Below, in pieces: positions 17,927 to 20,109 of a stretch of 44,441 nucleotides of DNA. Origin of the DNA: Mariprofundales bacterium (GTDB lineage Bacteria > Pseudomonadota > Zetaproteobacteria > Mariprofundales > J009); contig JAUZRF010000001.1 of assembly GCA_030950645.1 (NCBI GenBank), positions 1-44,441 of the forward strand. The letters are read 5' to 3'. Within the stretch, counting starts at the first letter, position 1. Each line of letters starts with the position of its first letter. A program made the translations under genes and the position numbers. A model generated the notes under the pieces. It saw only the letters and a list, made by a program, of their open reading frames with translations. It ran no database searches and had not been told where the DNA came from.

Positions 17927-18079
17927 GTAACTACTTATCACCCTACCCAAAAATGGCTGTAACTGCTCAGATTGCTTCTGGTTTTTCCGATAGCAAGGCG
18001 AAAAAGCGGAGTTTACTACTGTAAATGAGCATTTTTCAACGCCGCTATCGGAAAAACCAGAAGTGAGCTGAGTAGTTAC
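17927..18079 (+). repeat. Family A element, long form, with near-perfect target duplication
   Basis: This 153-bp copy starts GTAACTACTTATCACCC, has the internal repeat GTAACTGCTCAGATTGC at 17959, and ends CTGAGTAGTTAC. Flanking 8-mers are GGTAGGCG (17919-17926) and AGTAGGCG (18080-18087), 7 of 8 identical, as expected for an old 8-bp target site duplication. It sits between ampD and hemC. Confidence 0.9.
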
Positions 18080-18134
18080 AGTAGGCGAATGGTATCGGTG
18101 TGGCGATGTGAGTGAAAGCAACGGCGTCTATCAT

Positions 18135-18689
18135 CTATTGCCGTAGGCCACAAACTGGGGGCGGGGTGGCTTGATCGAGCAGGCTGCGGAAGCGTGGCCA
18201 CGACCACTGATGGCCGGGATCCCATTTGCGCCCTGGAGCAATATTCTGATGGCCGGTGATGGCGTCGGGATCAATGGCAGGGAATTGCCGCATGATCTCG
18301 CGGCACAGCGCTGCGGCAGTGGAATACTGCAGATCGGTAAAGGGGGATTGTTCATCACCAATCAGTTCAATGCCGATGGAGAAGTCGTTGCAGCACTCTC
18401 GGTCTTGCCAGCATGATGCGCCAGCGTGCCATGCTCGCTTAGCGAAGGGGACGAATTGGGTGATGTCACCGTTGCGGTCCACGACGCAGTGGGCAGAAAC
18501 ATGCAGCCCTTCTAGCTCAGAAAATTGGCTGCCCGATGCGGTGTCGAGGCAGCCAAGGAACAGCTCGCGCACATGGCGTAGGGCAAATTCTCCGGGAGGG
18601 AGGCTGATGGCGTGCAACACAATCAGTGAGACGCGCTCTCCATCTGGCCTCGCATCGCAGTGGGGTGAGGCGCAATGGCGAACCTTAAT
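18135..18689 (-). CDS. ampD: 1,6-anhydro-N-acetylmuramyl-L-alanine amidase AmpD, predicted AUU start
   Basis: AmpD is a zinc amidase that cleaves the peptide from anhydro-muropeptides during peptidoglycan recycling in the cytoplasm. Visible boxes are LHAISLPPGEF with the first zinc His, VSAHCVVDRNGDITQFV, AWHAGASCW, SIGIELIG, and ITGHQNIAPGRKWDPG with the second His and Asp ligands. The first ordinary start codons are GTG (18620) and TTG just before the zinc His, which would remove the first strand. The same frame continues upstream through SPHCDARPDGERVSLIV, a family hallmark, to a TAA at 18702-18704. The only plausible start there is ATT (18687-18689), overlapping by one base the stop of the upstream gene. 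This gives 184 residues, the usual AmpD length. Confidence 0.85.
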   Translation of the reverse strand: MKVRHCASPHCDARPDGERVSLIVLHAISLPPGEFALRHVRELFLGCLDTASGSQFSELEGLHVSAHCVVDRNGDITQFVPFAKRAWHAGASCWQDRECCNDFSIGIELIGDEQSPFTDLQYSTAAALCREIMRQFPAIDPDAITGHQNIAPGRKWDPGHQWSWPRFRSLLDQATPPPVCGLRQ

Positions 18690-20109
18690 CGCCGCGGCGG
18701 ATTACCTCGATCAACTCGGCGACGGTCGGGATGTTTCCTTCCGCGTAGAGCGGATCCTTAGCAAAGCGATAGCCCGCATGGCCAGAGAACATCAGGTTAT
18801 CGTCAGGATTCGCACCGTGAACAATGTTTTGCAGGGTGAGTTGAATGCAAAAGCTTCGTGGGTCTGCTTTGCGTCCAGTAGTGTTGAGCGCATTGCACGA
18901 CCAATTGCTGAACTTGCACTGCGATAGACAGCCCATGCAGTCGAGCTGATCTTTACGGATCAGCTGCGCGCGCTCGGGGCTAACAAAGATCAGCGTGGAA
19001 TCTGGTGTGGTCAGCGCCTTGGTAAAGCCTGCTTGCTGCCATGCTTGCGCTTGTTGGGCATCATGCTGGGTGACATACACGGTGCGGTCGCGCACGCCAA
19101 AGACAAATGGCTCGACATGATCCCCAGCGGGGTGGTCAACGAAGGCTAGCTCGCGCTGGGCGCGCTCCTCAAGCTCGTGCAGAAAGGTGTTGCGCACTGC
19201 GGAAGAGTAGAAGCCGGTGGGGGAGAAGTGGTTGAGGGATATATCCCCAGGTTTGAGTGTCAGAAGTTTGCGCTTCCATTGATCTGAAATTGGGCTCTCT
19301 TGGGTGAGTAATGGGCGCGTTCCCAATTGAAACGCGATCGGACCGAGCTCCGTATTATCGATCCAATCGGACCAGTCGCGCAGTGCCCATACCCCGCCAG
19401 CCATTACGATAGGAACCTGTTGCAGACCAAATTCATTCATGGTTTGGCGCAGCAGTGCCACCCGGCTATACGGCGCTTCGGGCTGTTGCGGGTTTTCGGA
19501 GTTGGAGAGCCCATTGTGGCCACCTGCCAACCAAGGATCTTCATAGACCACGCCGCCGAGCCACTCGGGCACTTTGCGGTAGGAGCGGAGCCACAGGGCC
19601 CGAAAAGCACGCGCGGAGGAGATGATCGGGTAGTAATAGGCGTTGTATTCCGCCGCTAGTGGTGCCAACTTGAACGGCATGCCAGCGCCGCAGGTGACGC
19701 CGTGAATGAGGTCTGGTGCGCCCTCAAATACGCCACGGAGAACGCGCTCGGAGGCGGCCATTTCCCAGAGTACATTCATATGGATGCGGCCATTCCCAGC
19801 GGCTACATCATGGGCGATTTTGGCCTGACTGATGCCGCCAGCGATGGAGTAGGCGATTAACTCTTCGTGGCGTTCGATGCGGCTTTTGCCATGGTAGATC
19901 AGCGGGATGTATTCACCATTATCATCAAGATGGTCGGCATTGACTGCGGAGAAGGTTCCTACCCCACCCGCGTTTGCCCAGGCGCCGGAAGATAATCCGC
20001 TCGAGGCGGCAACGCCTTTGCCTCCCTCAACCAAAGGCAGGACTTCGCGGCCAGAAATTTGCATGGGGGCGATGGGAAAGGTCATTGGCTTATTTTCCAA
20101 AAACGACAT
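18685..20109 (-). CDS. Nitronate monooxygenase / 2-nitropropane dioxygenase-like FMN protein
   Basis: This 474-residue protein of the NMO/YrpB TIM-barrel flavin family begins with PIAPMQISGREVLPLVEGGKG and has GIPIV-type boxes such as VPIVMAGGVWAL and FQLGTRPLLTQE in the FMN-binding half. It is longer than classic nitronate monooxygenases (about 330-380). The extra C-terminal part holds a Cys cluster, CMGCLSQCKFSNWSC, and one more Cys about 19 residues on, which could bind metal or an Fe-S cluster (inference). The substrate is unknown. The start may be the ATG at 20109 or the ATG eight codons later; a 17-bp palindrome ends exactly at the first ATG. Its TAA overlaps the predicted AUU start of ampD. 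Confidence 0.75.
   Translation of the reverse strand: MSFLENKPMTFPIAPMQISGREVLPLVEGGKGVAASSGLSSGAWANAGGVGTFSAVNADHLDDNGEYIPLIYHGKSRIERHEELIAYSIAGGISQAKIAHDVAAGNGRIHMNVLWEMAASERVLRGVFEGAPDLIHGVTCGAGMPFKLAPLAAEYNAYYYPIISSARAFRALWLRSYRKVPEWLGGVVYEDPWLAGGHNGLSNSENPQQPEAPYSRVALLRQTMNEFGLQQVPIVMAGGVWALRDWSDWIDNTELGPIAFQLGTRPLLTQESPISDQWKRKLLTLKPGDISLNHFSPTGFYSSAVRNTFLHELEERAQRELAFVDHPAGDHVEPFVFGVRDRTVYVTQHDAQQAQAWQQAGFTKALTTPDSTLIFVSPERAQLIRKDQLDCMGCLSQCKFSNWSCNALNTTGRKADPRSFCIQLTLQNIVHGANPDDNLMFSGHAGYRFAKDPLYAEGNIPTVAELIEVIRRGD

Follow-up and report, generated by a model that had tools for sequence, protein, structure and literature searches.

A candidate AUU start codon for ampD overlapping the stop codon of the upstream gene in a member of the Mariprofundales

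Introduction

Natural starts at AUU, AUA and GUC have been documented in other bacteria (PMC13009471, PMC5472188). Initiation at AUU is proven for infC and pcnB of Escherichia coli, according to the accounts of these genes given in the same two papers (PMC5472188, PMC13009471). In Streptomyces, the GTC start of sigR was proven by mutation and western blots (PMC5472188), while Staphylococcus aureus cvfC1 (AUU) and ccpN (AUA) provide natural AUH starts of genes other than infC, with lower expression (PMC13009471). Non-canonical initiation is one side of the problem considered here; the other is termination-reinitiation, known from gene pairs with ATGA or TGATG overlaps (PMC6728339). There is ample documentation of coupling over distances of this kind, in which the Shine-Dalgarno sequence plays a part that varies (PMC6728339, PMC12548453).

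Here we describe an ampD gene from the window (the whole 44,441-nucleotide stretch of Mariprofundales DNA that was analysed), whose best candidate start is an ATT overlapping the stop codon of a nitronate-monooxygenase-like (NMO) gene, and we compare this locus with its relatives and with other genes of the same bacterial family.

Results

Counted from the ATT, the ampD reading frame spans positions 18135-18689 of the minus strand (184 amino acids plus the stop TAG at 18135-18137) and is limited on its 5' side by an in-frame TAA at 18702-18704 (minus strand). From this TAA the codons read TCC GCC GCG GCG ATT (18687-18689) AAG GTT (18681-18683) CGC CAT TGC GCC, followed by S-P-H. No ATG, GTG or TTG occurs in the frame between the TAA and a GTG at 18618-18620 (minus strand). 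This first canonical start, with a TTG after it, lies just 5' of the zinc-ligand His codon (18612-18614, minus strand; within VLHAISLPPGEF, as placed by alignment to 1j3g), and its use would cost the protein its conserved N-terminal strand. The preliminary description had reported an ampD frame devoid of canonical starts before the zinc-His region, as the reading frame bears out, and on re-reading its coordinates for the frame, the limiting TAA, the GTG at 18620, the ATT and the upstream TAA all proved exact.

The product matched NCBIfam NF008758 (AmpD) with 239.5 bits against a cutoff of 143, over profile positions 14-184 of 190, and the protein started at ATT aligned with solved AmpD (PDB 1j3g/2y28, E=2e-53) from query residue 3. 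In the 1j3g alignment VLHAISLPPGEF and TGHQNIAPGRKWDPG matched VVHNISLPPGEF and TGHCNIAPERKTDPG, and we take the aligned AmpD residues His, His and Asp to be the zinc ligands. These ligands are retained, the remaining frame is intact and the gene is present as a single copy in its genome (G000). Judged by these profile and structure matches, the frame at 18135-18689 is AmpD (1,6-anhydro-MurNAc-L-alanine amidase) over its full length. Of the 16 codons between S-P-H and the GTG at 18620, 10 match those of the sister genus G001 exactly or synonymously, and the codons 5' of this GTG evolve as protein-coding sequence. The earlier claim that the N-terminus of the AmpD family is encoded there thus stands, given the alignment from residue 3 and the synonymous changes. 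Provided that the sequence is correct, these observations support a non-canonical start for ampD.

The NMO-like gene upstream of ampD (Pfam PF03060; 18685-20109, minus strand) ends with a TAA at 18685-18687 (minus strand). The ATT at 18687-18689 (minus strand), 7 codons before S-P-H, has base 18687 in common with this stop, which is the overlap by which coupled pairs are recognised. A rival candidate, the GTT at 18681-18683 (minus strand), begins one base past the NMO stop and lies 5 codons before S-P-H, the commonest start position of the family. Because this GTT also adjoins the stop, at the usual family start and in the place of a GTG in G001, the preliminary description went too far in naming the ATT the only coupled start, but the AUU abutting the NMO stop is still the best single candidate. 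The triplet itself is a by-product of the way NMO ends (GAT-TAA), its bases coming from the final Asp codon, GAT, and the T that opens the stop. One of ATT, ATC, ATA or CTG occurs by chance in 48% of comparable 11-codon stretches free of canonical starts, and ATT alone in 14%; an ATT at the junction does not exceed what chance would give. In all three genomes of the family (G000, G001 and G002) the AmpD frame runs open through the NMO-ampD junction.

For 46 AmpD loci, that of the window among them, we parsed what precedes S-P-H; all come from the order that contains Mariprofundus (Zetaproteobacteria), to which the nearest relatives in the genome set all belong. A scan of genome contigs yielded one Mariprofundus relative (already among the whole genomes) and two distant ones, and none from the window's family. 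A canonical in-frame start precedes S-P-H in all 45 relatives, leaving the window alone without one; the missing canonical start is more than chance. An ATG stands exactly five codons before S-P-H in 25 of the 45 relatives. In most others the start lies 7-17 codons upstream of S-P-H and codon -5 usually encodes Ile or Val, as in the longer AmpD of locus L011 (ATG AAA TCC GTT CGC), where Val is internal at this position.

AmpD is about 65% identical between the window and its sister genera, G001 among them, and NMO is 85% identical between the window and G001. Junction DNA of these two is nearly identical (GAT TGA G GTG in G001, GAT TAA G GTT in the window), and codon -5 encodes Val in both, differing only synonymously (GTG and GTT). 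G001 has its GTG one base past the NMO stop, together with the same ATT as the window. The shared ATT is not diagnostic, however, because the upstream Asp-stop dictates the triplet and G001 also has the GTG; that GTG is usable and stands in the usual place for the family, so the ATT need not be the start in G001. In G002 the last Asp codon of NMO is GAC, which puts ACT in place of ATT, and a GTG start stands farther along, as many codons (7) before S-P-H as the ATT of the window. The G002 junction differs, with more codons separating NMO and ampD. Among the loci examined, some of which are short stretches, NMO lies directly upstream of ampD only in G000, G001 and G002.

A Shine-Dalgarno-like GAGGT within NMO codons (18704-18708, minus strand) lies 14 nt from the ATT, which is too far. 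No Shine-Dalgarno sequence was found at a usable distance from the ATT or GTT of the window, the GTG of G001 or the GTG of G002, with an anti-Shine-Dalgarno of the E. coli type assumed because 16S rRNA was not found in the genomes searched. With no usable Shine-Dalgarno sequence, any initiation of ampD would therefore have to lean on ribosomes arriving from NMO. Predicted RNA folding at the NMO-ampD junction was no better than that of shuffled sequences.

The infC gene served as a positive control. In G000 (L060 near 1480, contig C56) its start is an ATC preceded by a strong Shine-Dalgarno sequence (-9.3 kcal/mol under the same E. coli-type assumption), of which the best-scoring stretch ends 4 nt before the ATC. 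In the genomes compared, the distance from the end of this stretch to the start is 4-5 nt. The start falls in one alignment column, as ATC in G000, G001, G002 and G006 but as ATT in G003 and G005. Going by these aligned infC starts, AUH initiation exists in the lineage. The IF3 sequence showed nothing obviously unusual in comparison with that of E. coli.

To find genes in which conserved residues precede any canonical start, we compared samples of 546 kb from G000, 903 kb from G002 and 400 kb each from the two Mariprofundaceae-type genomes G005 and G014, and judged the flags by eye. G005 and G014 resemble each other even in their upstream DNA, which made that pair unsuitable as a control, and the comparisons were restricted to genomes of different families. 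Inspection removed most of the flags, which proved to be chance extensions, antisense frames or overlapping genes read in a different frame. The comparison left one gene without a canonical start among 66 in G000 and one among 130 in G002, and none in G005 or G014, for which about 150 genes apiece were compared; these gene numbers include some spurious frames, and the counts of the closely related G005 and G014 are not independent. The family excess is not significant (Fisher p = 0.15), so that an excess of start-less genes in the family of G000, G001 and G002 is a lead rather than a result.

The individual cases carry names assigned by recognisable motifs rather than by family search. In G000 (contig C41; L136, minus strand from 4393) the frame of an hpnE-like desaturase has only CTG or ATC before its IAIVGGGLAG motif, the CTG standing four bases past the TAG of the upstream frame. 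A queE-like frame in G002 (L111 plus strand, from 10686, contig C29) has no canonical start before LRLFEIVATIQGES, and its best-placed candidate is an ATC 13 codons before QGE. The phoH gene of G002 (L189/L204) has no ATG, GTG or TTG before its conserved N-terminus and shows an ATC after GGGAG, while that of G001 (L205, looked up separately from the survey) has a CTG six nucleotides after AGGAG and its first canonical start at codon 49. Near-cognate starts may be commoner than usual in the window's bacterial family. That the family uses AUU, AUC and CUG for ordinary genes besides infC (ampD, phoH, queE and the desaturase), with start choice relaxed or regulatory throughout the lineage, is a tentative and somewhat doubtful generalisation.

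Two side observations concern the same genome. A dispersed repeat, about 140 bp long and close to palindromic, occurs at 17935-18100 of the window and at ten other places in it (3544, 30882, 34396, 34555, 35627, 37610, 37666, 42121, 44172 and 44317). The sampled 546 kb of G000 hold 163 such places, which make up 3.4% of the sequence. This density, about 300 per Mb, is very high for a genome of 2 Mb. Weaker copies number 19 in G001 and 1 in G002; the repeat had no match in Rfam. Separately, an integrase frame on the minus strand of L136 (from 17100) has no canonical start and is missing its N-terminal part in frame, and is probably a broken gene.

Discussion

We consider weak, termination-coupled initiation of ampD at the AUU, through re-initiation by ribosomes that have translated NMO, to be the best explanation of this locus (probability roughly 0.48). 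Ribosomes would terminate NMO at the UAA at 18685-18687 and re-initiate on the near-cognate AUU that overlaps it, producing a protein that begins fMet-KVRHCASPH... (predicted (M)KVRHCASPHCDAR). The outcome would be full-length AmpD, weakly expressed, with an output that follows NMO translation. We infer that AUU is used rather than the GUU two codons on, that coupling to NMO drives initiation, and that AmpD is expressed at a low level or down-regulated. In favour of AUU are the length it gives before S-P-H (that of the G002 GTG start), the position of NMO before ampD in all three family genomes, the same ATT in the sister genus, the AUH starts of infC and the other start-less genes. Against it count the want of a well-placed Shine-Dalgarno sequence, whereas infC and the S. 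aureus AUU and AUA starts have strong ones, and the ease with which ATT arises as a by-product of GAT-TAA, together with the GTG of G001. A single-base error at 18681 is also possible in this draft assembly.

Such an error would make the true codon at 18681-18683 a GTG, as in G001, and give ampD an ordinary start one base past the NMO stop. The GTT is one base from the G001 GTG at the orthologous codon, the position is the commonest start in the order (ATG in the 25 relatives noted above), and the assembly comprises 134 contigs at 91% completeness. We nevertheless regard a base error as unlikely, though it deserves serious attention: the sampled genes included no frame-broken orthologue (five listed pairs appear to be antisense frames), and repeated errors explain poorly the several start-less genes found in three independent assemblies of the family. 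It is mainly this recurrence that leads us to rank a real non-canonical start above an error. The GUU as it stands could also act as a weak Val-type start, giving a predicted (M)RHCASPHCDAR, in the manner of the natural GUC start of Streptomyces sigR, likewise found in a coupled gene pair (PMC5472188). Most relatives start at this codon, and one nucleotide past the NMO stop is a favourable place for coupling. Yet the codon may be a plain internal Val, since longer AmpD proteins (L011, for example) have Val or Ile there, it has no Shine-Dalgarno sequence and we know of no natural GUU start; we judge its use to be quite improbable.

The remaining alternatives have still less in their favour. If the start codon was lost recently, traces of AmpD may be translated from several weak codons while the gene heads towards inactivation, as the joint want of a Shine-Dalgarno sequence and a canonical start might suggest; this fits poorly with an otherwise intact, single-copy frame that keeps its zinc ligands and about 65% identity to the sister genera, and there is little reason to expect it. 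Initiation at the internal GTG at 18620 (or the TTG at 18617) would use the first canonical start in the frame and produce a shorter AmpD without SPHCDARPDGER. Because that conserved N-terminal part, present in relatives and aligned to 1j3g, would be removed, leaving the zinc His at residue 3, we agree with the preliminary description that such a start is very unlikely; the sole Shine-Dalgarno-like stretch, GGAGA, ends 16 nt away from it. Finally, a +1 ribosome shift at GAU-UAA-G would generate an NMO-AmpD fusion, in keeping with an AmpD frame that runs open from one gene to the next in each family genome. Over so few codons a frame readily stays open by chance, the junction shows no slippery sequence and that of G002 is different, with more codons between the genes, making a fusion highly improbable.

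To our knowledge, proven natural AUU, AUC or GUU starts outside infC are few, and ampD alone would be a modest addition to them. If coupled AUU initiation is correct, a weak ampD start tied to NMO would link cell-wall recycling to NMO expression. Family-wide use of AUU, AUC and CUG is possibly a more interesting lead than ampD alone: four other start-less gene copies across three family genomes make the frequency of near-cognate starts in this uncultured lineage, and the number of its proteins that are mis-annotated, a testable question. Were relaxed starts indeed lineage-wide, standard gene callers would systematically shorten or miss N-termini there.

Compared with known systems, ampD resembles infC and pcnB of E. 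coli in that its full frame has no canonical start but does have an AUU where a start is expected. It differs from these proven cases in that its candidate AUU overlaps a stop and has no well-spaced Shine-Dalgarno sequence. The conserved starts of S. aureus cvfC1 and ccpN have extended Shine-Dalgarno sequences, unlike the ampD candidate. The GTC start of Streptomyces sigR is a parallel, being rare and non-canonical and belonging to a gene pair for which translational coupling has been described (PMC5472188), although the weak-start gene is the upstream member of the sigR pair and ampD is the downstream member of its own. As in ATGA and TGATG pairs, the start codon overlaps the upstream stop, but those pairs have canonical starts and spacings of -4 or -1, whereas the AUUAA overlap of ampD (-5) is one that would be impossible with ATG.
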